Shown here in pieces: positions 1-18,509 of a DNA stretch of 64,000 nucleotides (the stretch's first letter is position 1; each line of letters starts with the position of its first letter). The stretch spans positions 1 to 64,000 of the forward strand of contig NZ_NFGZ01000005.1 of NCBI RefSeq assembly GCF_002159175.1. The letters are read 5' to 3'. The notes below the pieces were generated by a model. The model saw only the letters and a list, made by a program, of their open reading frames with translations. It was not told the DNA's origin and searched no databases. The translations under genes and the position numbers were made by a program. This DNA comes from Flavonifractor sp. An92. Lineage in GTDB: Bacteria; Bacillota; Clostridia; Oscillospirales; Oscillospiraceae.

Positions 1-451
1 GGTCTTGTGTCCGCTCCGAGGTTTGGACCACTGTTTCCGGAGAGCTCTCACGTGTAGTCTCCTGCCGGAGCACCATCTGCTCGCCGGGGATTGTCTGCCA
101 GCGGGTCACTGGCAGCACCGAACGCTCTCGCGTCAGTCGTTCCAGAGCCTGGGTACGTTCTCGCTCGATGGTCCGGTCCAGCGTCCGCTCCGAAGATTGG
201 ACCAATCTTTCCGGGGAGCTCTCACGCATGGTCTCCTGGCGGAACACCATCTGCTCGCCGGGGACTGTCTGCCAGTGGATCACCGGCAGCACCGAACGCT
301 CCCGCGTCAGTCGTTCCAGGACCCGGCTGCTTGCTCGCTCAATCGTCCGGTCCGAGGTTTGGGCCCTTATTTCCGGGGAGCTCTGTTGCACCATCTCCTG
401 CCGGAGAACCATCGGCTCGCCGTGGACTGTCTGCCAGCGAGTTACGGGCAG
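1..451 (-). repeat. tandem coding repeats (54-58 codons each)
   Basis: Three in-phase copies begin at 451, 289 and 115 on the minus strand, 162 and 174 bases apart; the third is cut by the window edge. Each codes for LPV-x-x-WQT-x-x-GE-x-MV-x-RQE, a SSPE segment and an ERLTRERS-like end. Copies two and three are nearly identical in several blocks at the DNA level, which points to recent duplication or ongoing homogenisation. The array may continue to the left of the window. Confidence 0.85.
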
Positions 452-2716
452 CGTGGAGCGCTCCAGAATCCGGGTACCTTCTCGCGCAATCCTCCGGTCC
501 GGCAACTCCGCCTCCGCGGTCAGGCGGGGCAGCGTCTGGGCCAGAATACCCAGGGGCGGCTCCTGCCGCTCCGCGGTCTGAAGGAGCCGGGCATAGACCA
601 GGCCTTCCCCCCGGGCCAGCGCCTGGAGCACCGGGGCCGCCTCTGCCTCCCCGCGCTTCTCCGGCTGACTGCCCAGGAGATTCCAGGTCCACGCCGCCGG
701 ACGGCGCTCCACCAGCGGGGCCATTTGGCGGGCCACCGCCTGACCCTCAGCCCGGCGGCTCTCCTTCACCCAGCGCTCCAGCACCTGGGTGACCGGCTCG
801 GCCGGGTGGGTATCCCTGCGCAGGTACTCATTCAGGCGGTAGCGGAAGGATTTATACTCCTTTTGGCTTTGAAAGGTGAGCATCCGCTCCACCGTCGCCA
901 GTGCGGCGGACGGTGGGACGGCGGCGGGCGCCGGTGTGGTCCGGACCGCGCCGCTGTCGGTGAGGCGGCGGAGCAGGACCACGCCCTCCTCTTCCGCCAG
1001 TCCGGAGAGCAGGCGCTCCCGCTCTCCCTGCCAGCTGCCGCCCCGGCCCTGGACATAGGCGGTCAGGCGCTCCCGGACGACGCGCTCCCGCTCTGCCGCC
1101 CGCTCCAAGGCCCGGACCGGCTCCCCGGTCAGCAGGCGCTCCACCAGAGCGGCAGGGTCGCCGCTGCGCTCGATGAGGTGGACCAAGGTCTCCTCGCCCG
1201 CGCCGGTCGTGCCGCCCCAAATGTCCGGGGCTTCGGCCGCCAGAGCGGACGCAGAGGCCAGCAAAGCCTGCCGCTCCGCCGGGCGGGCGGCGGACAGGAT
1301 CTGCCACAATTCCTCCCGCCGGTGGGTCCGCTGCTCGGTGACCAAGCTCCGCAGCTCCTCCAGTGCCCGGCTCTCCGCCGGGATGGGGGTGGCCTCCGCC
1401 TCTTGGGGGGCCTCCATCGCCGTCTCGTTCGGAATGGCGGGAACCGCGGGCGGCACGTCCAGAGACGGCCCGGCCGGGCGGCGCTCCTCCGCCCAGCGCA
1501 CCAAGGCGATCAGCTCCCGCCGACGGCTCTCCCGCACCAGGATGCTCAGCCGCTCCCCTTCCGGGGCCTCTGCCGCCTTGGCCTGACGGCCCGGGGAGAT
1601 GGCTCCGCTGCGCTGGATGAGCGTCAAAAAAGCCTGCTGCACCGGCTGCGGAGCGGCCTGGATGTACTCCAGCAGCTCCCCGCGCCGGACCGGTCCGGCC
1701 TCCAGCGCGGCGCGCAGCCACTGCACCACCGGTGCGGCCTGGACCGCGAGCGGTTCCGTCTCCCGGCCCCGGTCGGGACCACGGGACGCAGACGGTGCTT
1801 CCGGCACCCGGTCCGGGATGTGCTCCAGGGCCGTCTCCCCGCTCGCCCGATGGGCCGGGGCTTCTGCCGTCCGGGCATCGGCACGCCGGGCGGGCAGCGC
1901 TTCCCTCATTCCCGCCTGGACGGATACCGGGCGGCTCAGGCCCCGCTCCAGCACCCGCAGCAGCCGGGTATACTCCTCCCGGGAGCTCTCGCGGACCAGT
2001 TCCACGAGCCGGTCGCTGTGGTCCGAGCGGTCCGGCGTCTCGCCGTCCGGGGCGTGTTCGCGGCGGGGCACCAGACCCTGCTCCCGCTCCACCAGCGCCC
2101 ACACCCGCTCCCGCTCCTCCCGGTCGGCCCGGAAAAAGAGGGATAAGAAGCGCTCTTTCTGGACGGTCAGGGTCTCCCGTTCGGCGGGTCTCGGGTGGGA
2201 GACCGGTGCACGCACCGTCCGCTCCACCTCCCGCAGGCGCTGCTCCAGCCGCTCCCGCAGGCGCTCCACGGTATGGGTGTGGGCTTCCCGGTCGGCCTGA
2301 GGCGCGGTCACCTGGCGCAAAATCTCCCGCACCTCCCGACAGGTCTCCCGGTCCCGGGTCTCCAGAGCGGTCAGGCAGTTGGTAAGGCTCCGGGTCACCG
2401 TCTGGCGCTCCATCGGCGCGGGGGCCTCCGCCCGGGCCGGAAGGCTCCAGAAGGAGCTGAACTGAAGGGCCAGACGCAGCGTGAGCTCCGTCAGACGGAG
2501 ATCGCCCTCCTCCTGGACGGCCTCCCGCTCCTCTTCCTCCCGGAACACCAGCCAGGCCTCCGGATAGAGCTCCTCCCCCGTCCGGCCGAAGCGCTCCAGG
2601 ATGGAGCGGGCAAACCGCGCCGCGCCGCCGTCCGACAGCGCCGCCGCCACAGGCCGGAGCCCGGGCCGCGTCAGCCCCCGGCGGATGGGCAGAGAGAGCA
2701 CATGGGGCTTGAGCAC
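1..2716 (-). CDS. large tandem-repeat protein of the eCIS locus, partial (3' end beyond window)
   Basis: An uninterrupted minus-strand reading frame runs from a GTG at 2716 to the left edge, giving at least 905 residues with no stop. I chose GTG 2716 because it lies 3 bases after the stop of the tube-type gene upstream and a GGAGGTG Shine-Dalgarno overlaps that gene's end; the first in-frame ATG is about 100 codons further in. The protein is hydrophilic, very rich in Glu and Arg, without signal peptide or membrane segment, and looks largely helical or extended. Its visible C-terminal part holds three tandem units of 54-58 residues, each starting with LPV followed by WQT and a GE-MV-RQE core. 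It is the last gene seen in the sheath/tube operon, so it is probably part of or associated with the particle. I do not recognise the family; a tape-measure, tail-fibre-like or cargo role are guesses. A GTG start, a missing stop and high GC explain why simple ATG-to-stop searches miss it. Confidence 0.8.
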   Translation of the reverse strand, partial: MLKPHVLSLPIRRGLTRPGLRPVAAALSDGGAARFARSILERFGRTGEELYPEAWLVFREEEEREAVQEEGDLRLTELTLRLALQFSSFWSLPARAEAPAPMERQTVTRSLTNCLTALETRDRETCREVREILRQVTAPQADREAHTHTVERLRERLEQRLREVERTVRAPVSHPRPAERETLTVQKERFLSLFFRADREERERVWALVEREQGLVPRREHAPDGETPDRSDHSDRLVELVRESSREEYTRLLRVLERGLSRPVSVQAGMREALPARRADARTAEAPAHRASGETALEHIPDRVPEAPSASRGPDRGRETEPLAVQAAPVVQWLRAALEAGPVRRGELLEYIQAAPQPVQQAFLTLIQRSGAISPGRQAKAAEAPEGERLSILVRESRRRELIALVRWAEERRPAGPSLDVPPAVPAIPNETAMEAPQEAEATPIPAESRALEELRSLVTEQRTHRREELWQILSAARPAERQALLASASALAAEAPDIWGGTTGAGEETLVHLIERSGDPAALVERLLTGEPVRALERAAERERVVRERLTAYVQGRGGSWQGERERLLSGLAEEEGVVLLRRLTDSGAVRTTPAPAAVPPSAALATVERMLTFQSQKEYKSFRYRLNEYLRRDTHPAEPVTQVLERWVKESRRAEGQAVARQMAPLVERRPAAWTWNLLGSQPEKRGEAEAAPVLQALARGEGLVYARLLQTAERQEPPLGILAQTLPRLTAEAELPDRRIAREGTRILERSTLPVTRWQTVHGEPMVLRQEMVQQSSPEIRAQTSDRTIERASSRVLERLTRERSVLPVIHWQTVPGEQMVFRQETMRESSPERLVQSSERTLDRTIERERTQALERLTRERSVLPVTRWQTIPGEQMVLRQETTRESSPETVVQTSERTQD

Positions 2717-2719
2717 TGC

Positions 2720-3175
2720 TTACACCTCCAGCTCGGTCAGTCCGCTGTGGGAGATCTCCAGCTTTTCCAGGGCCACGGAGCTGCCCAGGCCGTCCAGCTC
2801 GGTGAGCTCCCAGCGGGTGACCACGCCGTCCTCCAGCCCCCAGGAGCGCACCGCCGTCCACGTCTGCTTCTCGTTCCAGTGGTAGAGAGTGATGGTCACC
2901 GGCACCTGGATGCGCCTGCCCGGGGCCAGGGCGCGGAGCACCTTGGCGGCGTCCGTCTCCGCCAGGACCCCCTTTTCCAGGGTGAGGGTCCCGCTCTGGC
3001 TGCCCGGCCGGGTGAGCACATGGACGAAGTCATTGAGCCCGCCCTCGGTCAGCTCCTCGTGCTCCACGGCGCGCTGCAGGTTGCTCACTTTGGAAAAACT
3101 GACGCGGGTCTTGCCGAAATAGACCACAAAATACTGGTTGCCCACCACCAGATGGTGCTCCATCGTCGCGGCCAT
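2720..3175 (-). CDS. phage tail tube-type protein (gp19/Afp5-like), second tube subunit of the eCIS
   Basis: A 151-residue protein of the T4 gp19-like tail tube family, the fold that stacks into the inner tube of contractile tails. Its length, lack of any signal peptide and motifs such as GNQYFVVYFGK near the start and LEKLEISHSGL at the C-terminus fit this group, in which eCIS loci usually carry a main tube protein plus one or two diverged paralogues near the baseplate. ATG 3175 is preceded by AGGAGG at a spacing of 8. It follows the DUF6760-like gene by 20 bases and precedes the large repeat protein by 3 bases, so it lies in the same operon. A role as tube initiator at the baseplate (Afp5/PVC5-like) is inferred from position, not proven. 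Confidence 0.8.
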   Translation of the reverse strand: MAATMEHHLVVGNQYFVVYFGKTRVSFSKVSNLQRAVEHEELTEGGLNDFVHVLTRPGSQSGTLTLEKGVLAETDAAKVLRALAPGRRIQVPVTITLYHWNEKQTWTAVRSWGLEDGVVTRWELTELDGLGSSVALEKLEISHSGLTELEV

Positions 3176-3195
3176 GGCCGGTCCCTCCTCTCCCC

Positions 3196-3384
3196 TCAGA
3201 TCTGCTCAAAGATGTTTTCGCGCTTCTCCTCGTTGTTGAGCTGGGAGTTGATGCGCGATACCTCCCGGCACCAGCGCAGCCGCTCCAGGTGGTTCATGCT
3301 CAGCACCTCTTCCCGGCTCCAGTGGAGGTAGTAGCCCAAAAACGCGGCCTCCTCATAGATCTTTTCCGCCGGATAAACCGCTAT
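3196..3384 (-). CDS. small eCIS protein, DUF6760-like, apparent ATA start
   Basis: A 62-residue reading frame too short for usual cut-offs. It reads AVYPAEKIYEEAAFLGYYLH at its start, followed by W-SREEVL, then an HLERLRW helix. This matches my memory of the short DUF6760-type protein that follows the small tail protein gene in many eCIS loci (pattern YP-x-x-LYEEVAFIAYHFHW...LEHRERRRW). The alignment-expected first codon is ATA at 3384-3382. No ATG, GTG or TTG occurs in frame for at least 55 codons upstream, and a GGGAG sits 7 bases before the ATA. The ATA overlaps the TAG stop of the gene upstream, the usual spot for a coupled start. Its role in assembly is unknown. Homology is fairly secure, the exact start is not. 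Confidence 0.68.
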   Translation of the reverse strand: MAVYPAEKIYEEAAFLGYYLHWSREEVLSMNHLERLRWCREVSRINSQLNNEEKRENIFEQI

Positions 3385-3752
3385 TGTCCGGCTCCCAGAA
3401 AATTTACCGGGATCTCCACCTCTTCCCCGCAGTGAGGGCAGATCCCCTTGTAGCAGGGGGTCTCCATGGAGTTGATGCGCTGGTAGAGGTCCTGCAGGTA
3501 GGCCAGATCCATGGTGAAGAGCTTTTCCACGATCTTGGTGTCCACCGCCGGCAGCGAGCCCAGGCGCACGATCACCCGGGCCAGCAGGATGATGGTGAGA
3601 TACGAGGGGTTCTGCTGCACCCGGGGGTCCCGCAGGGGCAGGATCTCATCCGCCGCGTTGGCCAGGCGCATGATGCCCTCCCGGTGGAGCATCCCCGTGT
3701 CGTCCACGTAGCCCCGGGGCAGGGTGAAATGAAATTCCGTCTCAAAGGTCAT
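3381..3752 (-). CDS. small eCIS tail protein (tail assembly/chaperone-like, zinc-ribbon tail)
   Basis: A 123-residue protein resembling the short conserved gene found right after the tube gene in eCIS operons. The N-terminal FHFTLPRGYVDDTG-x-LHREG and the central NAADEILPLRDPRV stretch are typical of it. The C-terminus has a CYKGICPHCG motif, a three-Cys ribbon-like element that may bind a metal. I start it at ATG 3752 because GGAGCGGAGG lies 8 bases before it; the longer ATG at 3785 has no such site. It overlaps the next small gene by 4 bases. In contractile phages the gene at this place is often an assembly chaperone; that function here is inference. Confidence 0.7.
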   Translation of the reverse strand: MTFETEFHFTLPRGYVDDTGMLHREGIMRLANAADEILPLRDPRVQQNPSYLTIILLARVIVRLGSLPAVDTKIVEKLFTMDLAYLQDLYQRINSMETPCYKGICPHCGEEVEIPVNFLGAGQ

Positions 3753-3793
3753 GCTGAAAACCTCCGCTCCTGGATATGCGGACAAGGCCGGAA

Positions 3794-3820
3794 CGCCGCG
3801 GGGCTCCCCGCCCCGCGGCG
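3794..3820 (-). promoter_or_regulatory. GC-only hairpin between tube gene and downstream tail genes
   Basis: A perfect 10-bp inverted repeat (CGCCGCGGGG, 7-base loop) lies in the 91-base gap after the tube gene. There is no U-run on the minus strand, so it is not a standard terminator. A strong hairpin here could protect the 3' end of a sheath/tube message or reduce read-through, giving more sheath and tube than the later genes; this is inference. Confidence 0.55.
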
Positions 3821-3843
3821 CACCAGCCGCCGCTTTGGTCTAT

Positions 3844-4266
3844 TTACGATACGCGGGTCATGCCCTCGTGGGCGATCTCCACCGTCTCGATGGCCACCTC
3901 GGAGGAAGTGGCGTTGAAGTCGGGGGCGGTATAGCGGATGGGCCAGGCGTTGATGACCTGCCAGGAGGCCACGTCCTGCCCCGCCTCATCCAGGGAGGTG
4001 ATGGTGATGGTCTTGCGGTCCACGGGGCCGTCCACGCCGGTGATGAGCCACTCGTACATCACCAGGGAGTCGGTCAGGCCCTTTTTCAGGGTGATGTTGC
4101 CGTACTTCTTCAGGCCGGGGATCTTGTAGGGCGTCTGGACCATGTCGCCCTCCCGGTACTCCATGACGTCGATGGAGGCGTCGAAGCCAGTCACTTCGGA
4201 GAAGCCGCCGGCGTCCAGGCCGTCGATCTCCACCCGATATCTGAATTTTCCATAGGGGTAAGCCAT
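3844..4266 (-). CDS. contractile tail tube protein (T4 gp19 family)
   Basis: A 140-residue protein matching the main inner tube subunit of eCIS and contractile tails. It opens with MAYPYGKFRYRVEIDGL, carries GGFSEVTGFDASIDVMEYRE and then IPGLKKYGNITLKKGL, which are the usual gp19-family blocks. The protein polymerises into the tube that the sheath drives through a membrane. The gene follows the sheath gene by 26 bases, and an SD-like GGAAAGGAG precedes ATG 4266. It is the first of two tube-type paralogues in the operon. Confidence 0.92.
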   Translation of the reverse strand: MAYPYGKFRYRVEIDGLDAGGFSEVTGFDASIDVMEYREGDMVQTPYKIPGLKKYGNITLKKGLTDSLVMYEWLITGVDGPVDRKTITITSLDEAGQDVASWQVINAWPIRYTAPDFNATSSEVAIETVEIAHEGMTRVS

Positions 4267-4292
4267 AACTCAAGCGCTCCTTTCCAGTTGTG

Positions 4293-6029
4293 TTACTCGC
4301 CGGCCTCGCTGGTCTTCTGGGTGATGCGGAAGATCACGAATTCGGCGGGCTTCACGGGGGCCACGCCGATGACGCAGATCAGGCGGCCGTTGTCGATGTC
4401 GTCCTGGCTCATGGTGCTGCGGCCGATGTCCACGAAGAAGGCCTCCGAGGTCGAAGAGCCGGCCAGACTGCCGTTGCGCCACAGCCCGGTGAGGAACACA
4501 TCGATGGTGCGCTTGACCCGGACCCAGAGCTGCTCGTCATTGGGCTCGAACACCGCCCAGTTGGTGTTGGCCTTGATGGACTCCTCGATGAAGATGAACA
4601 GTCGCCGGACGTTGACGTACTTCCAGCTGGCGTTGGAGGTGGCGGTGCGGGCGCCCCAGACGCGGATGCCCTGGCCGGGGAAGGCCCGGATCAGGTTCAC
4701 GCCCTTGGGGTTGAGGATGTCCTGCTCCCCCTTGTTGAAGGGGGTGTCCAGTCCCACGCAGGCCCGGACCACCTCGTTGGCGGGGGCCTTGTGGACGCCG
4801 CGGGTGTTGTCGCTGCGGGCGTAGATGCCCAGGATGGAGCCCGAGGGCGGGATGGCGATGTTCTTCTTGTCCAGGGGATCGAAGATCTCCAGCCAGGGGT
4901 GGTAGAGGGCGGCGTAATTGGTGTCGAACATGTCGCGGTGGTTCAGGATGTCCTGGACCTTCCGGGCCTCCCGGGGCAGGTCCAGCACGGCGAAGCGGCT
5001 GCCCAGGTTCTCACAGTGGGCCACCAGCATCAGCTGCACGTTGGGGTCCACCACGCCGGGCACGGCCATCAGGGAGACCATGTCGTTGTCCAGGAAGGCC
5101 TGGATGCCGGTACGTCTGCCCGCGCCGTTGTCCACGCCGATGAAGTCGGCGGCGGAGAGATTCCCCACGCTGCCGTTGCTGCCGCCGGACAGGCCCACGG
5201 TCACCAGGGCGTCGCCCTCGGCGGCGCACAGGCTCTGGAAGGGGGCGGTGCTGTCCTCGGGCAGGGCGCCGAAGGACACGCTCACCAGCTCGGACTTGGC
5301 CAGACGCTTGCCCACGAAGGTGGGGGCCTCCACGTTGAAGGACAGGTTCTCATAGAGCTCCACCTGGTCGTCGTACTTGACCTCCATGGAGAACTCGCAG
5401 GTGCTGATGGTCTTGATGGGCAGCAGGTTCTTGTCCACCACGTCCTCGGCGAACTCCTCGGCGAAAGTGAGGACATTGTCCTGGCTCTTGACCACCTTGT
5501 TGTAGACGGCGGTCTTTTTGTCGTCATAGACCACCACGTCGCCGGCGTGGAAGCCCGCGCCGTTCTTCACCACGTACTCCTTGCCGTTGGGCGTCTCCCG
5601 GATCTCCAGGATCTGGGTCTTGGCCTTGCTGGCGGGGGTGAGGACCACCCGGATGTTGTCGCCCCAGATGCCGGGGTTCTTGGCGGCGAAGGTCAGCACC
5701 GCGTCCCCCTCAGCGGGAGCCGCGCCCTGGGCGCACTTGGCGTCGCCGGGGGCCACACGGGCCACGAAGCAGCGGGAGCCGCCGTTGATGAAGAAGTGCT
5801 CCACCGCGTAGGCCAGGAAGCGGTACTCCCCGAACTCGCTCTCGGACAGATACCCGCCATAGGTGCGCTTGAAGTCGGCAAAGTTGGTGATGAGCTGGGG
5901 CACGCCCTCCACAGGGCCGCGCTCGGCCAGACCGATGAAGCCCGCGGTACTGGTGCTCACACCCTCCATGGGCTTGCCGCCGGACTCGAACTCCTCGACG
6001 TAGACGCCCGGGGACAAATACTCAGCCAT
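4293..6029 (-). CDS. contractile tail sheath protein (eCIS)
   Basis: A 578-residue sheath subunit. The N-terminus MAEYLSPGVYVEEFESGGKP and the following STAGFIGLAERGPVEGVP segment are standard for phage-tail-like sheath proteins, and the C-terminus (DNGRLICVIGVAPVKPAEFV followed by IFRI) is the conserved end that interlocks sheath rings and contacts the tube. Length is usual for eCIS sheaths, longer than R-type pyocin sheaths. It is the first gene after a 144-base gap with an extended -10 box and three 12-bp repeats, so it likely heads its own transcript: sheath, tube, small proteins, second tube and the large repeat protein. No phage head, portal, terminase or integrase genes are seen nearby, which supports an injection system over a prophage. 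Confidence 0.95.
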   Translation of the reverse strand: MAEYLSPGVYVEEFESGGKPMEGVSTSTAGFIGLAERGPVEGVPQLITNFADFKRTYGGYLSESEFGEYRFLAYAVEHFFINGGSRCFVARVAPGDAKCAQGAAPAEGDAVLTFAAKNPGIWGDNIRVVLTPASKAKTQILEIRETPNGKEYVVKNGAGFHAGDVVVYDDKKTAVYNKVVKSQDNVLTFAEEFAEDVVDKNLLPIKTISTCEFSMEVKYDDQVELYENLSFNVEAPTFVGKRLAKSELVSVSFGALPEDSTAPFQSLCAAEGDALVTVGLSGGSNGSVGNLSAADFIGVDNGAGRRTGIQAFLDNDMVSLMAVPGVVDPNVQLMLVAHCENLGSRFAVLDLPREARKVQDILNHRDMFDTNYAALYHPWLEIFDPLDKKNIAIPPSGSILGIYARSDNTRGVHKAPANEVVRACVGLDTPFNKGEQDILNPKGVNLIRAFPGQGIRVWGARTATSNASWKYVNVRRLFIFIEESIKANTNWAVFEPNDEQLWVRVKRTIDVFLTGLWRNGSLAGSSTSEAFFVDIGRSTMSQDDIDNGRLICVIGVAPVKPAEFVIFRITQKTSEAGE

Positions 6030-6115
6030 AGTTTCCCGGTCCCGGTCCTTCCCGGAACCGGCTTCCCCCTTTCTGATCTGATTTTCATAGATTGGGTTTC
6101 CGCTTTGGTGCTCTC

Positions 6116-6161
6116 ATCATATCAGCCTGCTCTGAACCGTTCTCTGAACAATTGACTGAAC
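6116..6161 (-). promoter_or_regulatory. putative activator-controlled promoter of the sheath operon: three GTTCAG repeats plus extended -10
   Basis: On the minus strand three GTTCAG hexamers occur with an exact 12-base period (plus-strand CTGAAC at 6132, 6144, 6156). The nearest ends 10 bases before TATGAT (6116-6121), which carries the TG element of an extended -10 (TGATATGAT). There is no good -35 box; the repeats take its place. Phased direct repeats just upstream of a weak promoter are what LytTR-type activators bind, and a LytTR regulator is encoded at 12715. Binding is inference. Confidence 0.5.
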
Positions 6162-6173
6162 AGGTCGGATTTT

Positions 6174-7016
6174 TCACTTTTTTTCCGGGCGCTCCCCGCC
6201 GTCCCCGGCGGGCTCCTCCGGCAGGTCCGGCGTGTTCTCCGGCTCCTCGGGCGGGGGCTCCTCCCCGGCGGGCGCGGCGGTGAGGAGCCAATAGCGCCGG
6301 GGCGGCTCGCTCTCCCCCGCCCGGCGTTTGGACTCCTCCCTGGCCTTCTGGAGCATCAGGCGCACCTTCCGCTGCTGGGCCGCCTTCTCGGTCAGGCTCT
6401 GGCGGAGGGCCTGCCGCCGCCGCTCGAGAGCGCCCAGCTCCGCCCGAGCCTCCGCTCCGCCCCGGGCGCGCAGGTCGTCGGCCCGCTCCCCCAGGGCCTT
6501 GAGCGCCTCCCGCTCCGGCCGCCGGTCCAGAAAGGGCACCTGCTCGGCGAGCACCTCCTGCGCCCGGCCGTGCATCATCCGCTGGAACTGGCCCAGCATC
6601 CGCCCCGGCGCGGGCTTGTCCGGGCTGCGGAAGGCCAGGGCGCTCTGCTCCGGGTCGTGGGGATTGGTAAAGAATTCCCCCCGGACCCGCTCCATCTTCC
6701 GGGCTCCAGAGGCCCGGAGGGCCTTCTCGTCCCGGGTGGCCGCCGGTCCCTCCCGGCTGCGGCGCTTGGAGACCACCAGGGTCAGCTGCTTTTTCCGGTC
6801 CGTCCCCACCGCCAGGTCCCCGTAGGAGCCGGACAGCCGCGCCGCCTCCCGGGGGCGGTCCTTCTTCTCCTGGGCGGGGTGGGGCTCATAGCCGGTGAGG
6901 CGGTCCTCCCCCTCCCGGCGGGAGAGGGGCGAGACTTCCCGCATCCGCCCCTCGGAGGTGCGCCAGAGGGGCTTCCGACCCTCCTCCCGGCGCTCCTTTT
7001 CCTCAAAACTCGCCAT
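6174..7016 (-). CDS. highly charged protein of unknown function in the eCIS operon
   Basis: A 280-residue protein with start ATG 7016 (MASFEEKERREEGRKPLW), overlapping the ATPase gene by 14 bases. It is dominated by Arg, Glu, Lys and Ala, with no signal peptide or membrane segment. Residues around 170-250 form a likely helical or coiled-coil stretch (repeated ERADDLRARGG/ALERRRQALRQ type sequence), and the C-terminal 40 residues are Pro/Glu-rich and probably disordered. I do not recognise a family. Its coupling to the AAA+ ATPase and place just before the sheath promoter suggest an accessory or chaperone-like role in particle assembly, which is speculation. Confidence 0.7.
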   Translation of the reverse strand: MASFEEKERREEGRKPLWRTSEGRMREVSPLSRREGEDRLTGYEPHPAQEKKDRPREAARLSGSYGDLAVGTDRKKQLTLVVSKRRSREGPAATRDEKALRASGARKMERVRGEFFTNPHDPEQSALAFRSPDKPAPGRMLGQFQRMMHGRAQEVLAEQVPFLDRRPEREALKALGERADDLRARGGAEARAELGALERRRQALRQSLTEKAAQQRKVRLMLQKAREESKRRAGESEPPRRYWLLTAAPAGEEPPPEEPENTPDLPEEPAGDGGERPEKK

Positions 7017-9048
7017 CGTCGTCCTCCTCCGCCAGCATGTAGTACTCCCCAAAGTCCGCGCGGGTGAGCACCTTGCCGCTCTTGCTCAGCTCCCGCCGCA
7101 CCGCGGTGAGCAGGTGCTCCATCCCCACGGCGCGGCCCTCCCCGGCGGCCAGAAAGGCGGCGTTCACCGCCACGTTCTTGATGCCGCTGCCGGTGAGCTC
7201 GAACTGGCCGGCCAGGTACTCCCAGTCCACGTCGGCCTCCACCGGCGTCTTCTTGGGAAACACCGAGCGCCACAGCAGCAGGCGGTAGTGGGCGTCGGGA
7301 AAGGGAAAGGGGATGATGAATTTCAGACGGCGCTTGAAGGCCTCGTCAAAATTCTGGAGGAAGTTGGTGGCCAGGATGCTGACCCCCTCGTACTCCTCGA
7401 TCTTCTGGAGGAGATAGGCCGCCTCCATGTTGTTGTACTTGTCGTGGGCGTCCTTCACCTCGGTGCGCTTGCTGAAGAGCACGTCGGCCTCGTCGAAGAA
7501 GAGCACCGCCTGGCTGCGGGAGGCCTCCCGGAAGATGGCGCTCAGGTTCTTCTCGGTCTCCCCCACGTACTTGCTCACCACGGCGGACAGGTCCACCTTA
7601 TATAATTCCAGCCCCAGCTCCCCGGCGGCGATCTGCGCCCCCATGGTCTTGCCGGTGCCCGGCGGGCCGGAGAAGAGCATGGACAGTCCCGCGCCGTAAG
7701 CCAGTTTCTCCCCAAAGCCCCAGGCGCCGTAGACCTGAGGGCGGTGCTTCATCTGGTCGCAGGCGCTGCGCAGCAGGCGCTTGGAGCGGGGCGGCAAAAT
7801 GAGGTCGTCCCAAGTGAAGGCGGCCTCCACCTTCCGGGCCTTCTCCCCCAGGTCGCGGCGCAGCTGGCTGCGGCAGCCCTCCTCCAGGCACGCCCGGTCC
7901 ACCCCGTCCAGCCCCGCCCAGCGGGCCAGGGACCGGGCGCTGTCCAGCGCCCGCCGCATCTGCCCGGGGGTGAGGCGGTAGGCGCCCGCCAAACGCGCCG
8001 GGTCGGCCTCCTCCACCAGAGGCTGATCGGCCAGCAGACGGCTCCAAAGCCGACGGCTCTCCTCCAGGCCCGGGAGAGGGAGGGGCACCGTCACCGGGCG
8101 CCAGCCCGCCGGGCCCGCGCCCACCGGCCAGCTCTCTCCGCACACCAGAAGGGACACGCCCCCGGCACGGGCCGTCTCGTCCAAAAGCTCCCCCAGCCAC
8201 GCCGCGGCGGCGGGGTCGGTCCGGGCTTCCTCCACCACGCCGTCCAGCCCGGTGAGGCACGCCCCGCAGTGCTGGAGACGCTCCTCCCGCAGGAGGGCCC
8301 GGCGGAAGGCTTCTCCCCCTTCGCCCCGCAGATACGCCCCGTCGGCCAGCAGCAGCGGTTCCTCCAGCCGCCCGGCCAGGGCCCGGGCCAGGGTGCGGCG
8401 GCCCGCTCCCTCCAGCCCGGTGAGGAGGAAGGTGGTGTGCTCCCCCTCCGCCCGGCGCAGGTACTCCGCCATGCGCCCGGCCAGGTCCCACAGCTCCGGC
8501 GGGAACGGAGCACCATTCCCGGCGGGTACAAGGGTCAGGCCTGGGGTCTCCGGCTCCTCCCAGGCGTCCCAGAGGGCAAAGTCCACCACCCGGCGCTCCG
8601 GCCGCAGGGGGGTGGTCAGGCGGGTGGGACCCTCCGCCGGCTCCAGCGCACAGCCCATCAGCGCCCCGCTGGGTGCCAGAGCGGAGCGCAGCTCCCCCCG
8701 TCCGGTCCCCTCCAGCAGGCACAGGGCCAGCCCGGCAGTGAGGAAGCCCTCTCCCACCGGCTCCAGCGCGGCATAGGCATCGGCGAAACCCTCCTCCAGT
8801 TCGGGCAGGAGCGCCAGAGCCAGACACTGGCTCTGGACCCAGTCCAGACCCAAGGCGGCCTGGAGATACGGGAAGGGCAGGAACACACCCGCCGCGGCGG
8901 AGGCCCGTGCACGGCCCTCCAGCGTCTCCCAGTCCGGTGCTTCCGGTTTTCTCCCCTCCGCTCGGTCCAGCAGCCCCCGGCCCCAGGCCGCCAAATCCCG
9001 CCAGGCGCTCTCCCGGTTTGGGTAGGGGGCAAAATCCTGTTCTCTCAT
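7003..9048 (-). CDS. eCIS-associated AAA+ ATPase (Afp15-like)
   Basis: A 681-residue protein. The N-terminal ~400 residues are a diverged ATPase-like region, with one weak nucleotide-binding remnant near residue 200 (TGLEGAGRRTLARAL). The C-terminal third is a canonical AAA+ domain with Walker A SGPPGTGKT near residue 461, Walker B VLFFDEAD near 514, and sensor/arginine-finger region LATNFLQNFDEAFKRRL. This two-part layout is the one seen in the ATPase that is a core gene of eCIS loci; it is thought to help assembly or maturation in the cytoplasm. ATG 9048 is chosen because it forms an ATGA overlap with the stop of the regulator gene upstream, implying translational coupling. Confidence 0.88.
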   Translation of the reverse strand: MREQDFAPYPNRESAWRDLAAWGRGLLDRAEGRKPEAPDWETLEGRARASAAAGVFLPFPYLQAALGLDWVQSQCLALALLPELEEGFADAYAALEPVGEGFLTAGLALCLLEGTGRGELRSALAPSGALMGCALEPAEGPTRLTTPLRPERRVVDFALWDAWEEPETPGLTLVPAGNGAPFPPELWDLAGRMAEYLRRAEGEHTTFLLTGLEGAGRRTLARALAGRLEEPLLLADGAYLRGEGGEAFRRALLREERLQHCGACLTGLDGVVEEARTDPAAAAWLGELLDETARAGGVSLLVCGESWPVGAGPAGWRPVTVPLPLPGLEESRRLWSRLLADQPLVEEADPARLAGAYRLTPGQMRRALDSARSLARWAGLDGVDRACLEEGCRSQLRRDLGEKARKVEAAFTWDDLILPPRSKRLLRSACDQMKHRPQVYGAWGFGEKLAYGAGLSMLFSGPPGTGKTMGAQIAAGELGLELYKVDLSAVVSKYVGETEKNLSAIFREASRSQAVLFFDEADVLFSKRTEVKDAHDKYNNMEAAYLLQKIEEYEGVSILATNFLQNFDEAFKRRLKFIIPFPFPDAHYRLLLWRSVFPKKTPVEADVDWEYLAGQFELTGSGIKNVAVNAAFLAAGEGRAVGMEHLLTAVRRELSKSGKVLTRADFGEYYMLAEEDDDGEF

Positions 9049-12000
9049 CACGACGACCTCCCGCTGCCCAGCCGGCGGAGCAGACATTCCTGATAGACCC
9101 GGGTGACTTCTTCCCCCGGCTCCGCGCCCAGGTCCTCCTTCAGGGTCTCCTTCAGGCGGTTATAGAGGCTCATGGCGCTCTTGACCTCCCCCAGCGCGCC
9201 GTAGCAGCGCAGCAGCTGACAGGCCAGCTCCTCATCGTAGGGCTCCTGCCGGATGGCCGCCCGCAGACACTCCGCCGCCCGGGCATAGTCCTCCTGCTCC
9301 ATCCAGCGCTGGGCCCGCTCCCGGTGGTAACGCAGAAATTGCCCGGCATACCAGGTCCGCCGGTCCTCGGCCCACACCGACTCCACATCCTCCAGATAGG
9401 CCCCCTCACAGAAGCCCTCCGGCTCGTCCGTCTCCTCGCCCCGGAACAGGGCCTCCACCGTCTCCCGGTCGGAGCGCACCCGCTCCAGATCCAGGCGGTA
9501 GCGCTTTTTCTCCCGCAGGATAATCCCCTCCAATCCGTAGGGCGCCAGGCTCTTGCGGATGTTATAGAGGCTGGTGTGGAGCAGCGAGGTGGCCTTGGCG
9601 GCGGGCGACTGGGGCCAGAGCATGTCCATCAGCTTCTCCCGGTCCACCCAGGCCCCCTCCAGATGGAAGAGGTAGGCAAACAATTCCTGGGTCTTGCGGG
9701 TGCGCCAGTGCAGCTCCTGTCCGTCGGGGAGCAGCACCCGGAAGGGACCGAAGCACTTCACAAAAAGCCCGGGCTCCTCCCCGCCGGCCGGCTCCGCGCC
9801 GCGCTCCAGCTCCTGCAGCGTCCCGCGCTCCCCGGCGGTGAGGCCGGGGCATACCAGTCCGTTCTCCCGCAGGTAGGTCCCGCAGCGGCGCACCAGCGCC
9901 AGCGCCCCGGCGCGGTCCTCCTCCCGGAGAAGAAGGGCCTCCTCCAGGTCCAGAAACGCCAGGAAGGCGTTGCCCCATCCCCGTCCGTTGTGCCAGTCCT
10001 CCCGCTCCGGGCGGGTGCGGCGGCACAGTTCCAGCGCCCGGGCATACGCGCCCCGGCGGGCGCACTGCCGCACCGCCAGCCAGCGCACCCCGTCCAGCAT
10101 GGCCGGGATCTTCCGCCGCTCCAGCGTGAAGAGGGCCTCCTCGGTCTCCGCCGCCATGGGCTGTTGCAGCAGCGCCCGGCAGAGCACCGGAAAGGCTCCC
10201 TGGAACCGGCTGCTGCTCCCGCCCCGGAGGACGCCGCTGTCCCAGAAGGTCTGGACCGGGGGCTCCGCGTCGCCCCCCTCCATGCGGGCGATCTGCTCCA
10301 CGATGGCCTGGATGAGCACGATGTCCTGCATGGTCTGGTGATAGACCCAGTCGGGCATCTCCTCCACGGCCTTGCCCATCCGGGCGCGGGCCGGACCGGG
10401 CCGTCCGCTCAGGGCCAGGTAAAATTGGATATAGGGCGCCACCGCCGCACCGGCGCGGTCCCCCTCGCCCCGGAGGAGCACATACATCTGCATGGCTCTG
10501 CGGTACTCCCCCATGGCGAAGCAGCAGATCACGGCCTGCTCCCGGCACCAGCTGCGCTCCAGCGGGTCCCGCCGGGCTCCGCTGCTCTCCAGCTCCTCCA
10601 GGACCTGGCGGAGCACCTCGTCAGCCGGATAGAGGTCCAGCCGGTTGTAGAGCCGCAGCTCCCACGCCTGCCGGCGCAGGGGGCTGTGGGGCAGCCGGTG
10701 GCGCATCCGGGGCAGCAGCTCCTCCACCAGGCCCAGGCTCTCCGCCGCGCTGCCCAGCTCCCGGGCCAGCTGGGCCCGTAGGAGCTTGGCCTCCAGCAGA
10801 CAGCGCTCCCCGGTCCGGTCGGGATAGCCGTCGATCAGCTCCTCGGTCAGAGCCAACGCGCCCGTCTGGTCCCCCACCTGCTCCAGATACTGGCCCTTCA
10901 AAAGGCACATCTCCGGCGTGAGGGGCGCGCCGATGGCCCGCAGCTCCTCCAGCCAGCGGCGCACGGTGCTCAATTCGCCCCGGAACAGCGCCTCCCGGCC
11001 AGCGTCCTCCAGGGCGCGCTGCAGCCGCTCCCCGTCGCCGCAGGCGATGGCATACTCCGCCGCCTGGGCTTTATCGGGGGTACGGAGGTAAAAATCCGCC
11101 GCCTGGGCCAGCAGTGCCGCGCGCTGCCCCGGCTTGAGACGGCTGTCCAGGAAATCCCGGAACAGGGAGTGATAGCGGTAGATCGGCCCCCCAGACAGGC
11201 GCAGGATGAAGAGATTTTCCTGCTCCAGATAGGCCAGCTGCCCCGCGGCATTGTCGATGCCCAGCAGCGCGTTGCACACGTCGGGGCGGAGATACTCCAG
11301 CACCGACGTGCACACCAGGAACTGCTGCAGGTCAAAGGGCAGCTTCCGGAAGAGCTCGTGCATGATGTAATCCCGCAGATAGGGCTGCTGACAGGCCTGG
11401 TCCAGGTCCAGCTGGTCCACCCGCAGCCGGGTCTGCCGGGCGTAAAGGATGGTGAAGCACAGCCCCGCCGGCCAGCCCTCCATCCGGTTTTGAAGGGCCT
11501 GTGCCGTGGCCGCCAGCCGGTCGGGCGCGGTATCGGCGGCGATGAGCTGCTCCACCTCCTCCAGATCGAAGGCCAGGCTCTCCGCCCCCAGCACCAGGGC
11601 CGAGCCCTCCAGCAGATAGCGGGCGCAGAAGGCCGGCGGCGCGCTCTTGGTGGCCAGGATAAGCCGCAGGCCCCGGGGACGGCTGTCCAGAAGCAGATTC
11701 AGGAACAGAAAGATCCACTCGTTCTGGATCACCTGAAAATTGTCCAGGATCAGGTTCAGCCGCTCCCCCTTCCGCCCGCGCAGGACCACGGCGAAGTCCA
11801 GGGCCAGGTTGCGCACCAGCTCCTCGTCCTGCTGGAGCGTCAGGTAGGGCGACAGATCGAACTCCAGCTCGGGCGCCGCCCGGGACACTGCCGCCCACAG
11901 GTAGCGGGAAAAGACCATGATGTCGTTGTCGCTCTCCCCCACGTGGTACCAGACACATTGCTCCGGGTGGCGCTTGGTGTAGTGGGTGAGCAGCACCGTC

Positions 12001-12152
12001 TTGCCATAGCCCATGGCGGCGCTGATGACCAGCAGCGGCTCCTCCGCCTGGTCCAGCCGGTCCAGGAGCCGCTCCCGGACCAGGAAATGCCGGGGTGCGG
12101 TGGGCGCCTGGAGCTTGCTACTCAGCATCCGCTCCCTCTGCGCCCCGCTCAT
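9048..12152 (-). CDS. MalT/LAL-type ATPase regulator with C-terminal SARP (winged helix + BTAD) domains
   Basis: A 1034-residue signal-responsive transcription factor. Near residue 46 is a STAND-type P-loop (AAMGYGKT), followed by a Walker B-like LNLILDNFQ, as in MalT-type NTPases; the middle ~450 residues are helical TPR-like repeats. From about residue 798 comes an OmpR-like winged helix (LFVKCFGPFRVLLPDG...LMDMLWP) and then a bacterial transcriptional activator domain to the end, the SARP layout rather than the LuxR helix-turn-helix usual for MalT. It is linked by ATGA overlaps to both the receiver-like gene before it and the ATPase gene after it, so it likely controls the injection system. 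The ligand is unknown. Start ATG 12152 follows from the overlap and from the first homologous segment. Confidence 0.85.
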   Translation of the reverse strand: MSGAQRERMLSSKLQAPTAPRHFLVRERLLDRLDQAEEPLLVISAAMGYGKTVLLTHYTKRHPEQCVWYHVGESDNDIMVFSRYLWAAVSRAAPELEFDLSPYLTLQQDEELVRNLALDFAVVLRGRKGERLNLILDNFQVIQNEWIFLFLNLLLDSRPRGLRLILATKSAPPAFCARYLLEGSALVLGAESLAFDLEEVEQLIAADTAPDRLAATAQALQNRMEGWPAGLCFTILYARQTRLRVDQLDLDQACQQPYLRDYIMHELFRKLPFDLQQFLVCTSVLEYLRPDVCNALLGIDNAAGQLAYLEQENLFILRLSGGPIYRYHSLFRDFLDSRLKPGQRAALLAQAADFYLRTPDKAQAAEYAIACGDGERLQRALEDAGREALFRGELSTVRRWLEELRAIGAPLTPEMCLLKGQYLEQVGDQTGALALTEELIDGYPDRTGERCLLEAKLLRAQLARELGSAAESLGLVEELLPRMRHRLPHSPLRRQAWELRLYNRLDLYPADEVLRQVLEELESSGARRDPLERSWCREQAVICCFAMGEYRRAMQMYVLLRGEGDRAGAAVAPYIQFYLALSGRPGPARARMGKAVEEMPDWVYHQTMQDIVLIQAIVEQIARMEGGDAEPPVQTFWDSGVLRGGSSSRFQGAFPVLCRALLQQPMAAETEEALFTLERRKIPAMLDGVRWLAVRQCARRGAYARALELCRRTRPEREDWHNGRGWGNAFLAFLDLEEALLLREEDRAGALALVRRCGTYLRENGLVCPGLTAGERGTLQELERGAEPAGGEEPGLFVKCFGPFRVLLPDGQELHWRTRKTQELFAYLFHLEGAWVDREKLMDMLWPQSPAAKATSLLHTSLYNIRKSLAPYGLEGIILREKKRYRLDLERVRSDRETVEALFRGEETDEPEGFCEGAYLEDVESVWAEDRRTWYAGQFLRYHRERAQRWMEQEDYARAAECLRAAIRQEPYDEELACQLLRCYGALGEVKSAMSLYNRLKETLKEDLGAEPGEEVTRVYQECLLRRLGSGRSS

Positions 12153-12508
12153 ACGCACCGCTGCAGGGCCCGGGTCACCTGCTCCTCCTCCACCGGGAAG
12201 CGCAGAAACATCCGCGCCCGCAGCCGGTAGCTCTGCATGCCAAAGTCCTCGTCGTCTGAGATCCAGATCAGCGGGACGCTGGCGTCCAGCGCCCGCACGC
12301 CGATGGCCGACTCCATCCCCAGCGCACCCTGAAGGGCCACCACCACCGCGTCGCAGCTCCCCCGCCGCAGCCGGTAGAGGAGATCCTCCCGCCGGGCAAA
12401 GCACTCCACCGCCGGGCAGCGCCCCTCCTGGCGGGCAAACTGATGCACGCTCTTCTGAAAAAACGCCGTCTGCTCGGGAGCACACAGCACCAGACACCGA
12501 AATTCCAT
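12149..12508 (-). CDS. receiver-like protein lacking the phosphoacceptor Asp
   Basis: A 119-residue protein folded, as far as sequence shows, like a CheY/LytTR-type receiver: an N-terminal strand CLVLCAPEQ, a central SCDAVVVALQGALG strand, and WISDDEDFGMQSYRLRARMF, the usual beta4-alpha4 stretch. Where receivers have DLVFLDIQ the sequence reads DAVVVALQ, so the phosphorylated Asp is Ala. The acidic pair at the N-terminus is also missing. It has no output domain. It is translationally coupled (ATGA) to the MalT/SARP regulator and so may act as a phosphorylation-independent partner. The longer in-frame ATG upstream is rejected: MEFR at 12508 is where homology begins. Confidence 0.72.
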   Translation of the reverse strand: MEFRCLVLCAPEQTAFFQKSVHQFARQEGRCPAVECFARREDLLYRLRRGSCDAVVVALQGALGMESAIGVRALDASVPLIWISDDEDFGMQSYRLRARMFLRFPVEEEQVTRALQRCV

Positions 12509-12624
12509 CCCGTCGTCCTCCTCTTCTCTGGCCGCGTTCGGTGGGGGGACCGCGCCGAGCTGCCGTTTTTTCCAACATAGCACAATTCTGACCGGAAAAA
12601 AATTCAATCGACGGGAAAGGCATT

Positions 12625-12639
12625 TTTTCACCGTGAAAA
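12625..12639. promoter_or_regulatory. palindrome TTTTCAC-C-GTGAAAA between divergent regulator genes
   Basis: A perfect 7-1-7 palindrome lies in the 206-base gap between the minus-strand eCIS regulator operon and the plus-strand LytTR operon. A TATACT box follows at about 12652 on the plus strand. Its position makes it a candidate operator for one or both units. Nothing else in this gap is clear apart from AT-rich tracts. Confidence 0.4.
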
Positions 12640-12714
12640 GCAGATTCCATGTTATACTGATTATGGTACACTGAACGAGCCGTCTTTTTCTCATGTCAAA
12701 TGGAGGTGAATGCT

Positions 12715-13443
12715 ATGCTCCTGGCCATTACCGATGACTCTTCCCAGGACCGGGAAGAGCTGATCGCCCTGTTGGAGCGCTATTTCAAACAGCGGCGGAG
12801 CACCGTGGAGTATGCCTGCTTTTCCTCCGCAGAAGAGCTGCTGGACGGCTTCGTTCCGGGTAAATATCAGATCGTCTTTCAGGATATCTACCTGTCCGGT
12901 CTGGACGGGATGGAGGCCGCGCGCCGCATCCACCAGCTGGACCCGGCCTGCCGCCTGATCTTTTTTACCATCAGTCACACCCACGCCGTGGAGAGCTACA
13001 CCGTGCAGGCGGCCTACTACCTGACAAAGCCGCTGGACTACGCCCACCTGGAGGCCGCCATGGACGCGGTCTGCGCCGGGCTTTTACGGGACAGCCGCTT
13101 CCTCACCGTCCACTGCTCCGGGCTGCCGCTGGATCTGCTGCTGCGCAACCTGCTCTTCGTGGACTGCCAGGCGGAGCGCACCCGCCTCCACCTCTCGGAC
13201 CGGGTGGTGATCGTGGACGACCGGGCCTCCAATGTGCTGGGCGCCCTGTCCGAGGACGGACGTTTCCTCGCGTGCAACCGGAACACCGCGGTGAATATGG
13301 ACTGGATCGAGAAGGTCCTGGAGGATGATTTCCTCCTGAAAAACGGAGAACGGGTCCCCATCCGGCAGCGCGGCCGCAAAGCGGTCAAGCTGGCCTTTCT
13401 CCAGTACACCTTACAAAGCCTGCAAAAGGAGGGTACGCCATGA
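12715..13443 (+). CDS. LytTR-family response regulator
   Basis: A 242-residue regulator. The receiver domain (residues 1-120) has an acidic DDS pair near residue 7, the phosphoacceptor in VFQDIYLSGLDG, and the conserved Lys in YYLTKPLDY. Residues ~130-235 form a LytTR DNA-binding domain (beta-rich, with LLFVDCQAERTRLHL and AVNMDWIEKV blocks). Start ATG 12715 has GGAGGTG 6-7 bases upstream. It overlaps the next gene by 4 bases and its cognate kinase is two genes on. LytTR regulators bind pairs of phased direct repeats; such repeats sit before the sheath gene, so it may activate the injection system. Confidence 0.9.
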   Translation: MLLAITDDSSQDREELIALLERYFKQRRSTVEYACFSSAEELLDGFVPGKYQIVFQDIYLSGLDGMEAARRIHQLDPACRLIFFTISHTHAVESYTVQAAYYLTKPLDYAHLEAAMDAVCAGLLRDSRFLTVHCSGLPLDLLLRNLLFVDCQAERTRLHLSDRVVIVDDRASNVLGALSEDGRFLACNRNTAVNMDWIEKVLEDDFLLKNGERVPIRQRGRKAVKLAFLQYTLQSLQKEGTP

Positions 13444-17169: not shown

Positions 17170-17172
17170 AAC

Positions 17173-17216
17173 GAGAGCCGGGACCCAAAATGGGTCCCGG
17201 CTCTCTGCCGTTTTTC
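17173..17216. terminator. bidirectional intrinsic terminator
   Basis: A 13-bp perfect stem (AGAGCCGGGACCC, loop AAAAT) followed by TTTTT on the plus strand and a T-rich tract on the minus strand. It separates the kinase operon from the converging haem/cobalamin operon. Confidence 0.9.
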
Positions 17217-17219
17217 TGT

Positions 17220-18509
17220 TCAGTTCAACCGGGCCAGGGCCTCCCGGGCGGCCTCCACCGTCCGGTCCACCTCTTCCTCCGTGTGAGCGAAGGAGAGGAA
17301 CATGGCCTCGAACTGGGCGGGAGCCAGATAAATGCCCCGCTCCAGCATCTGGGCGAAGTACCGGGCGTACTTGCCCACGTCGCTGCCCTTGGCGTCCACG
17401 AAGGTGCTCACGCCGTCGGGGGTGAAGAAGGGAGACAGCAGGCTCCCCACCTGGTTCACCGACACCGGCGCGCCGGTGTCCGCCGCCGCCTTCCGCAGGC
17501 CCTCCGCCAGCCGGTCGGCCAGGGCGGAGATGTGGGTGTACACCTCCGGGTGGTCCTTCAGGTAGTGGAGCTGGGCCAGGCCCGCCGCCATGGCCACCGG
17601 GTTTCCGCTGAGGGTGCCCGCCTGGTACACCGGTCCGCAGGGGGCCACTTCCTCCATGAGAGCCCGGCTGGCGCAGTAGGCCCCCACCGGCATGCCGCCG
17701 CCGATGATCTTGCCGAAGGTGACGATGTCGGCGTTCACGCCGAAAAACGCCTGAGCACCGCCCAGGGCCAGGCGGAAGCCGGTGATGACCTCGTCAAAGA
17801 TGAGAAGGGCGCCGTACCGGTCGCAAAGCTTCCGAAGGCCGGGCAGGAACTCAGGCTCCGGCAGCACCACGCCCATGTTGGCCGCCACCGGCTCCACGAT
17901 GACGCAGGCCACCTGCCCAGGATTGGCCTCCAGCAGGCCCTCCACGCTGGCAAGGTCGTTGAACTGGGCCGTGAGGGTGTGGCGCACCACGTCCTCCGGC
18001 ACCCCCGCCGAGGTGGGGTGTCCCCCCGCCAGGGCGGAGGATCCGGCCCCCACCAGCAGACAGTCGCTGTGGCCGTGGTAGCAGCCCTCGAACTTGATGA
18101 TCTTATCTCTCCCCGTGGCTCCCCGAGCCAGGCGGATGGCCGACATGACCGCCTCGGTGCCCGAGTTCACCATGCGCACCATCTCGATGCCCGGCACCAG
18201 CTCCACCATGAGCTGGGCGATCTCCACCTCCCGCGCGGTGGGCGCGCCGAAGGACAGGCCGTCCTTCACCGCCTTCTCCACCGCCTCCCGGATGACCGGG
18301 TGGTTGTGGCCCAGAATCATGGGGCCCCAGGAGCAGACGTAGTCGATATAGTCCCGCCCGTCCACGTCAAAGATGTGGGAGCCGTCCGCCCGGGTGATAA
18401 AGCGGGGGGCCATGTTCACCGCCCGGAAGGCCCGCACCGGGGAGTTGACCCCGCCGGGGAGGACCTGCACCGCCGCCTCAAAGAGGGATTCCGAGGTTTT
18501 CCCGTTCAT
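17220..18509 (-). CDS. hemL: glutamate-1-semialdehyde 2,1-aminomutase
   Basis: A 429-residue PLP enzyme converting glutamate-1-semialdehyde to 5-aminolevulinate, second step of the C5 tetrapyrrole route. The N-terminal [12 protein letters not shown], the YHGHSD motif near residue 144, IFDEVITGF near 238 and the PLP lysine in [14 protein letters not shown] (Lys267) are all present, and length is standard. ATG 18509 forms an ATGA overlap with the hemB stop, which fixes the start. It is the last gene of the riboswitch-led cbiM...hemL operon and ends 4 bases before the shared terminator. Confidence 0.97.

Follow-up and report, generated by a model that had tools for sequence, protein, structure and literature searches.

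A contractile injection system locus of Flavonifractor and related Clostridia with a candidate operator and a conserved, putative membrane module

A contractile injection system (CIS) locus occupies positions 1 to 12,508 of a 64,000-nucleotide stretch of DNA from Flavonifractor sp. An92 (contig NZ_NFGZ01000005.1, here C45, from its first base; the whole stretch is called the window below), raising the question of whether its product is set free as an extracellular contractile injection system (eCIS) or acts at the membrane of the cell that makes it. The use of contractile injectors through a thick Gram-positive wall has been raised as a puzzle in Streptomyces work (PMC10066040). A sequence-only reading of the window had named the locus an eCIS. 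The phage-tail-derived contractile injection system in that name stands, while “extracellular” is put in doubt by a nearest solved sheath that belongs to a membrane-bound system and by a conserved membrane module. From the gene content, we consider that the machine is probably built inside the cell, anchored and set off at the cytoplasmic membrane, and switched by a STAND-BTAD regulator, rather than being freely released. New here are the candidate membrane module, which follows a Cis13-like gene, and a candidate operator-promoter before the sheath gene.

The left edge of the window is a contig end in a 3.49-Mb genome of 60 contigs, and the CIS locus goes on in contig C31 of the same genome, to which a gp25 search, made with the protein of a relative, had led. 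The final 45 bases of C31 are identical to the first 45 bases of the window, and a repeat protein at the edge carries on into C31. The baseplate genes that had been expected to the left are present there: C31 carries, in order, a CIS_tube protein with a LysM-like end, a GPD hub, a Phage_base_V spike, gp25, two Baseplate_J proteins, a Tail_P2_I protein (CIS12 family match) and a 584-aa protein whose N-terminal part matches the CIS13 family (both CIS family matches fall below NCBI cut-offs), followed by a 300-aa protein, a 639-aa MORN protein, Pvc16_N, a 270-aa protein, a 915-aa HAMP protein, a 1152-aa SLH protein and a second AAA+ ATPase with a winged-helix domain (WHD-AAA+). Split over two contigs with a 45-base end in common, one cluster thus contains the genes for sheath, tube, hub/spike, gp25, J-type baseplate, cap and CIS AAA+ proteins. 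Phage_portal and Phage_capsid had no match on C31 or C45, their matches being confined to C41 and C14 (the search did not extend to terminase or integrase families); the absence of adjoining head or portal genes had been noted before and holds. TssM (IcmF-related), a membrane protein of the type VI secretion system (T6SS), had no match in the genome, with a positive E. coli control, so that the locus does not belong to T6SS subtypes i-iii. Taken together, the CIS cluster, the lack of a portal or capsid match on either contig and the lack of TssM identify the locus, as judged from its genes, as a phage-tail-derived, headless contractile injection system.

The tail genes are of phage origin, as they would be in a degenerate prophage or tailocin. 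Yet none of the 1265 sheath-matching records in a phage collection aligns with 80% of the sheath at a single place, all are below 60% identity to it, and the best among the matches listed reaches about 34%; portal and capsid families are confined to other contigs, and the locus has a CIS-type AAA+ protein, Pvc16 and DUF6760. We rejected a prophage or tailocin on the sheath coverage and the location of the portal and capsid matches, and its probability is minimal. IMG/VR scans returned no locus with the MORN profile, none with the Cis13-like protein and two with the sheath.

Under a strict definition, an eCIS cluster encodes no membrane complex; this cluster encodes three putative membrane proteins, all conserved, which may or may not amount to one. 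Behind the Cis13-like gene stand a kinase-like transmembrane (TM) protein and a MORN-repeat TM protein, with a HAMP/cyclase-like receptor further on. To follow this module, loci were drawn from a species-genome scan, which gave 210 candidate stretches, 190 of them encoding a sheath relative, and from which 80 loci were kept. Thirty genomes were picked from these 80 loci; a homologue of the HAMP/cyclase-like protein was found in 30 of the 30 genomes tried. Twenty loci picked from the 30 genomes, with 19-20 kb downstream taken, made up an extended set, and here the Cis13-like, MORN, Pvc16 and cyclase-like proteins each occurred in 20/20, the kinase-like protein as its own open reading frame (ORF) in 19/20, the 270-aa protein in 19/20 and the second AAA+ protein in 14/20. 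In the remaining locus, L138 (2793-4577), the kinase-like and MORN proteins are naturally fused around a single TM-like stretch, which argues that the two work together.

The module was also followed into 20 pieces from 13 genomes of the family with more diverged sheaths. Nine of these Oscillospiraceae loci have a Cis13-like gene in the piece, with the trio complete in five (L145, L150, L157, L160 and L161; the MORN gene of L145 is cut by the piece edge), partial in three and lacking in one. The partial cases include L142 with the kinase-like gene only and L147 with the kinase-like and cyclase-like genes, both of which run to the piece edge; L154, with no module match, ends about 0.2 kb past Cis13. 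A MORN match lies at the contig edge in L152, which gave no module profile match, and neither a module match nor a Cis13-like gene was found in the pieces covered of L153, L158 and L159. By contrast, the module was found in none of three outgroup CIS loci, of which 37-42 kb each were covered (Haloferax larsenii, Paenibacillus cellulosilyticus and Streptomyces clavuligerus), although these have structural genes in common with the window; a Cis13-like match occurred in the first two only. A literature search, with most subscription papers outside its reach, met no paper linking contractile injection with MORN.

Hydropathy places TM-like stretches in 27/27 MORN, 28/28 cyclase-like and 25/28 kinase-like proteins (the L138 fusion is counted under both kinase-like and MORN), compared with 1/21 Cis13-like, 0/21 Pvc16 and 0/20 270-aa control proteins. 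The 300-aa kinase-like protein has one such stretch near its C-terminus and the MORN protein one at about residue 82. The kinase-like protein matched PDB profiles at 0.001 and 0.0003, and hhalign gave 74% locally and 7.6% globally, with four control alignments at ≤0.2% and ≤0.1%. The 300-aa protein shows no HRD catalytic Asp: HRD faces EAL in the hhalign alignment, which ends before the DFG position. YRD strings in 5 of 25 kinase-like rows and DFG strings in 2 lie, by eye, elsewhere. The kinase-like TM protein of L145 (15302-16438) has an added C-terminal LysM match (5.8e-4, just below cut-off), hinting at cell-wall contact.

The HAMP protein is a predicted multi-pass receptor with a HAMP and a cyclase-like domain, whose profile matches adenylate cyclases at 8e-14 and a chemoreceptor at 9e-6. 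Among 21 members of its family, HAMP matched in 17 and Guanylate_cyc in 3. At the cyclase metal positions the protein of our strain has Ser and Ala; none of the 21 members has both Asp residues, and each is missing in 20 of 21. Judged by these positions, the predicted output domain is not a class III nucleotide cyclase, since both catalytic metal-binding residues are missing. In 4 of 20 relatives (L122, L123, L131 and L136) there is nothing more than a short TM-cyclase protein; near it, L122 also encodes a receptor-MFS fusion and a SpoIIE phosphatase (12836-15811 and 16382-17977).

If the locus were a classical eCIS, particles would be assembled, the cell would lyse and free particles would bind by fibres, with the module serving lysis, export or stress sensing. 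The gene set matches eCIS, the Cis13-like protein may contain a receptor-binding part, and fibre domains have been reported in Bacillota eCIS (PMC12923769). The conservation of membrane proteins beside the Cis13-like gene and the lack of a match to them in the three comparison loci speak against this, as does the nearest solved sheath: ranked by match, the closest are haloarchaeal 9ezm (1.4e-131) and then Streptomyces 8bky, and the Halogeometricum borinquense system of 9ezm (clade IIa) is described as membrane-bound and contact-dependent with a T6SS mode of action (PMC11566945). The closest relatives of the haloarchaeal Cis11 are reported to lie in Bacillota (PMC11566945). We therefore regard a classical eCIS as unlikely, at roughly one chance in four.

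An intracellular CIS of the Streptomyces kind, in which cytoplasmic particles meet the membrane via an adaptor under stress and kill the producer, has slightly better prospects but is still doubtful. It is a special case of membrane-linked action, and its odds overlap with those of the membrane-held machine we prefer. The second-closest solved sheath and a Streptomyces CIS that is likewise flanked by BTAD regulators fit it; in the S. clavuligerus locus nothing matched the module (a comparison that did not include CisA itself), and the receptor's predicted extracytoplasmic part suggests outside sensing. Membrane-linked action, with Streptomyces-like intracellular use included, is more likely than free release.

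How such a machine could be switched is indicated by the region before the sheath gene. In an alignment of the sheath-upstream sequences of the window and its three nearest relatives (L032, L033 and L034), three TGTTCAG-type repeats with a 12-bp period and a −10-like TATGAT are conserved. In the window this candidate operator-promoter spans 6116-6161 on the minus strand (46 bp), with three GTTCAG repeats followed by 10 bp and TATGAT. At ≤2 mismatches the three-repeat pattern occurs once in the window and in none of 100 shuffles. A free tri-repeat search in 76 sheath-upstream regions (75 relatives and the window) found period 12 in 14 versus 0.15 expected, with other periods at 0-3, although several of the 14 look spurious (e.g. 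L044, L057 and L085). With its last repeat relaxed, the three-repeat pattern at ≤2 mismatches was present in 20 of the 75 regions and at 2 places elsewhere in 2.65 Mb of the relatives' loci, both strands. The shorter form GTTYAG-N6-GTTYAG-N10-TATRAT stands before the sheath in 13/75 without mismatch and in 19/75 at ≤1, with 0 elsewhere in the 2.65 Mb; at ≤3 mismatches the counts are 22/75 and 6 elsewhere. Among 30 spacings tried at ≤1 mismatch only the combination of 6 and 10 bp gave matches, and the whole 3.49-Mb genome at this threshold has one match, C45:6116-6149, without mismatch (backward control, none). A consensus promoter scan of window 1-13500 returned 0 sigma-70-like sites versus 0.7 expected in shuffles and left the sheath candidate unreported.

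The regulator that would read this site lies upstream on the same strand (9048 to ~12152) and is a STAND/MalT-type ATPase with a C-terminal BTAD/SARP output domain. The MalT-type assignment with SARP output is borne out by NF003420 (3e-63, below the curated cut-off) and PF03704 (BTAD, 1.6e-17, above cut-off); Trans_reg_C (PF00486) matched at 1.3e-4, below cut-off. With a BTAD domain and a predicted winged-helix DNA-binding part, it is by domain content a SARP/BTAD regulator. In a census by blastp at 1e-4 of the 57 loci with at least 8 kb upstream of the sheath, a STAND-BTAD ORF was found in 42, and STAND and BTAD as separate ORFs in 2 (L049 and L086). Motif-bearing loci (≤1 mismatch, at least 8 kb upstream) have STAND-BTAD in 17/17, one of them split, and loci without the motif in 27/40 (26 intact, 1 split). 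When the motif (either pattern at ≤2 mismatches) is mapped as a label onto a regulator tree of 46 rows, with L086 and its split regulator outside the tree, it needs 3 changes versus 14.6 when shuffled, and 0 of 500 shuffles were as low. The regulator set had been thought unusual, which does not hold: BTAD is already in print as an eCIS “shell” domain and a named eCIS regulator (Geller 2021, PMC8213781), so the regulator is no new kind, 42 of 57 relatives have STAND-BTAD, and at the S. clavuligerus CIS locus two BTAD regulators are annotated within 18 kb. The literature search met two papers that link contractile injection systems with BTAD.

Another reader of the site could be the LytTR response regulator encoded divergently (12700-13443, plus strand; PF00072, PF04397), which forms a two-component pair with a GHKL histidine kinase (15244-17169, plus strand; PF14501 1.7e-10) and may provide an input; the pair is present in L034 as well as in the window. 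LytTR regulators bind direct repeats with a GTT core, a pattern that the site resembles, and the gene adjoins the locus in both genomes. By contrast, L032 and L033 have the repeats and STAND-BTAD with no LytTR response regulator seen in the flank covered, and the motif distribution tracks the STAND-BTAD tree. Reading by LytTR instead of STAND-BTAD is therefore improbable. At the head of the locus, a receiver-like small protein of 119 aa (12149-12508, minus) had been read as a receiver without phosphoacceptor. The gap at the phosphoacceptor Asp position in the alignment agrees with this, and its C-terminal part matches response-regulator ORFs of L034, L049 and L069 and a small ORF of L074 (blastp, E ≤ 1e-4); its identity as a receiver is weak, because no Pfam match was found at E 0.05. 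L074 (2948-3672) has two consecutive small receiver-like ORFs before STAND-BTAD, the first without an aligned phosphoacceptor and the second judged by eye. At the position of the window's receiver-like ORF, L033 (2290-3549) and L032 (398-1765) have a regulator-like ORF upstream of STAND-BTAD, with a helix-turn-helix-like start by eye.

For the preferred membrane-held machine these parts suggest the following course. A signal would release the STAND switch, and the BTAD domain would bind the GTTYAG repeats and activate the structural operon. The kinase-like and MORN proteins would connect baseplate and envelope, and the HAMP/pseudo-cyclase receptor would relay a signal from outside to the particle, once loaded, or to its assembly. 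Taken further, and more tentatively, the system may be a monoderm counterpart of T6SS in gut Clostridia, with docking by the kinase-like and MORN proteins, firing through the pseudo-cyclase receptor without catalysis on contact or cell-wall signals, and the number of machines set by STAND-BTAD and its private operator; we would give this fuller version about one chance in three.

Several observations weigh against the membrane-held, STAND-BTAD-switched machine. Tethering is deduced from gene content, and envelope proteins could be part of a released eCIS too, serving export or lysis. The SLH protein matched in only 3 of the 20 extended loci, the three closest, and L148, the third of the partial diverged loci, has no kinase-like gene between the Cis13-like and cyclase-like genes, whose ORFs overlap there (cyclase-like and MORN are present). 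The kinase relation of the 300-aa protein is distant, and 3 of 28 kinase-like proteins (L142, L147 and L157) have no TM-like stretch. In the family sample the kinase-like profile matched in 15/300 genomes (own included) at E ≤ 0.001, including 10 of the 23 sheath-positive ones, so that 13/23 sheath-positive genomes have no match and 5/15 matches fall in sheath-negative genomes (G011, G166 and G282 at <1e-7, G125 and G196 weak). In the class sample it matched in 33/391 genomes; because many of these matches, found within far longer frames, may represent ordinary kinases, the profile is unclean as a co-occurrence marker. In the receptor family the first metal Asp is kept in L125 and the second in L132, and two members have Glu at the first position. 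STAND-BTAD is absent in 13 of the 57 loci (BTAD only in L102 and L103, neither in 11), and the motif is absent in 26 loci with an intact STAND-BTAD. The motif was first recognised by comparing the window with its three nearest relatives, and its pattern was then adjusted on the very 75 loci used for counting, making its count partly post hoc, and shared ancestry inflates that count, near relatives not being independent. Finally, SARP-LAL sites consist of two or three heptamers separated by 3 or 4 bp, with a classical period of 11 bp (PMC5930380); with a period of 12 bp instead, the site is SARP-like without being a full match.

Sheath genes related to that of the window are common in Clostridia, which, with the BTAD regulators already in print, corrects the earlier impression that a clostridial version under this type of control is little described. 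The top kept locus is from Candidatus Intestinimonas stercorigallinarum, and many of the 80 are titled Lachnospiraceae or bear names of gut genera. In the window's family a sheath match occurs in 23 of 300 sampled genomes (own included) and in none of five other same-genus genomes among those listed, so the locus is patchy. The literature search, with most subscription papers outside its reach, met one paper in which Lachnospiraceae occur together with contractile injection systems, and there the latter appear in the reference list only. CIS loci have been described as depleted in mammalian and human microbiomes (PMC8213781), and the 190 candidate stretches with sheath relatives, many of the kept ones from gut genera, bear on that view. 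Since the conserved candidate module and candidate operator are also present in named cultured strains, and cultured carriers of the locus include Petralouisia muris NM01 and Sporofaciens musculi WCA-9-b2 (loci L066 and L086), removing one gene at a time could probe anchoring, triggering and control separately.

The remaining genes of the locus, all on the minus strand like the regulator, were found at the positions first given. The tail sheath protein (Cis2; 4293-6029) matches PF04984 (9e-18) and PF17482 (2e-17), the gp19-type inner tube protein (3844-4266) PF06841 (9e-44), a conserved 123-aa tail protein with a CPHC motif (3381-3752) phrog_508, a tail assembly chaperone (6e-5), the 47-aa DUF6760 protein (3196-3339) PF20546 (5e-12), and a second gp19-type tube protein (2720-3175) PF06841 (2.6e-16). 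The 123-aa protein shares 54-57% identity with its counterparts in CIS loci of haloarchaea, Paenibacillus and Streptomyces. The AAA+ ATPase with a variant winged-helix domain (7003-9087; PF00004 1.6e-29, PF22977 1.7e-10), which we take to be of the Cis15 type, completes the set that the sequence-only reading had recognised, and the Pfam and PHROG matches confirm all of its members. Overlapping start and stop codons, also noted then, join the AAA+ gene (start 9087) to the regulator (stop 9048), a 280-aa ORF (6174-7016) to the AAA+ gene (7016 and 7003) and, if the regulator starts at 12152 and not at its other candidate 12128, the regulator to the receiver-like ORF (stop 12149). The 280-aa protein belongs to no family recognised here, with no Pfam, PHROG or NCBIfam match at E 0.01, and has counterparts 54-57% identical in L032-L034. 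A long protein with degenerate repeats (2-2716), possibly a tape measure or cargo, extends beyond the contig end into C31; the contig break sits in a 174-base tandem repeat within it (window 9-353). In L039, L044 and L045 the gap from the second tube gene to the next tube gene is too short for this protein. After the second AAA+ gene, close relatives encode a proline-rich protein without Pfam match (L119:1-1800, L120:18843-20000), a possible cargo. A DUF4280-type (PAAR-like) motif occurs in a small protein of 10 of the 20 extended loci, including L122 (11440-11826), for which alone Pfam was run; by motif none was seen in the window or C31. The ORFs beside the locus (17220-39285) presumably encode heme and cobalamin biosynthesis.

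Compared with known systems, the locus shares many genes with the haloarchaeal CIS: the Haloferax larsenii locus has the sheath, 123-aa and tube proteins, hub, spike, gp25, J, Tail_P2_I, Cis13-like, Pvc16 and AAA+ proteins. It differs in that the putative anchor described for haloarchaea is the six-TM Hbor_38620 (PMC11566945) and in that the clostridial kinase-like/MORN/pseudo-cyclase module was not found in the Haloferax locus. The Streptomyces CIS (8bky, 9gtp) shares a Gram-positive host, a similar sheath and BTAD regulators nearby, the clostridial J protein matches 9gtp at 1.4e-39, and a single-pass membrane protein is encoded beside the baseplate genes there as well (PMC10066040, PMC12237407). 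That protein, CisA, has a sugar- or substrate-binding-like domain (PMC10066040, PMC12237407), whereas the predicted clostridial ectodomain consists of MORN repeats and is accompanied by a receptor with a pseudo-cyclase. With the Photorhabdus Pvc and Serratia Afp eCIS the locus has in common the sheath family (Pvc2 and Afp3 matches), tube, spike, gp25, J proteins, Pvc16 and AAA+; unlike them it has a conserved membrane module, known here from genes alone, and one sheath protein, as covered, in place of several. Its regulator resembles SARP-LAL regulators such as PimR in combining BTAD with a STAND ATPase, and its candidate site resembles theirs, in which two or three direct repeats precede a −10 element (PMC5930380), but the clostridial BTAD is C-terminal and the candidate site has a 12-bp instead of an 11-bp period, with the sequence GTTYAG.

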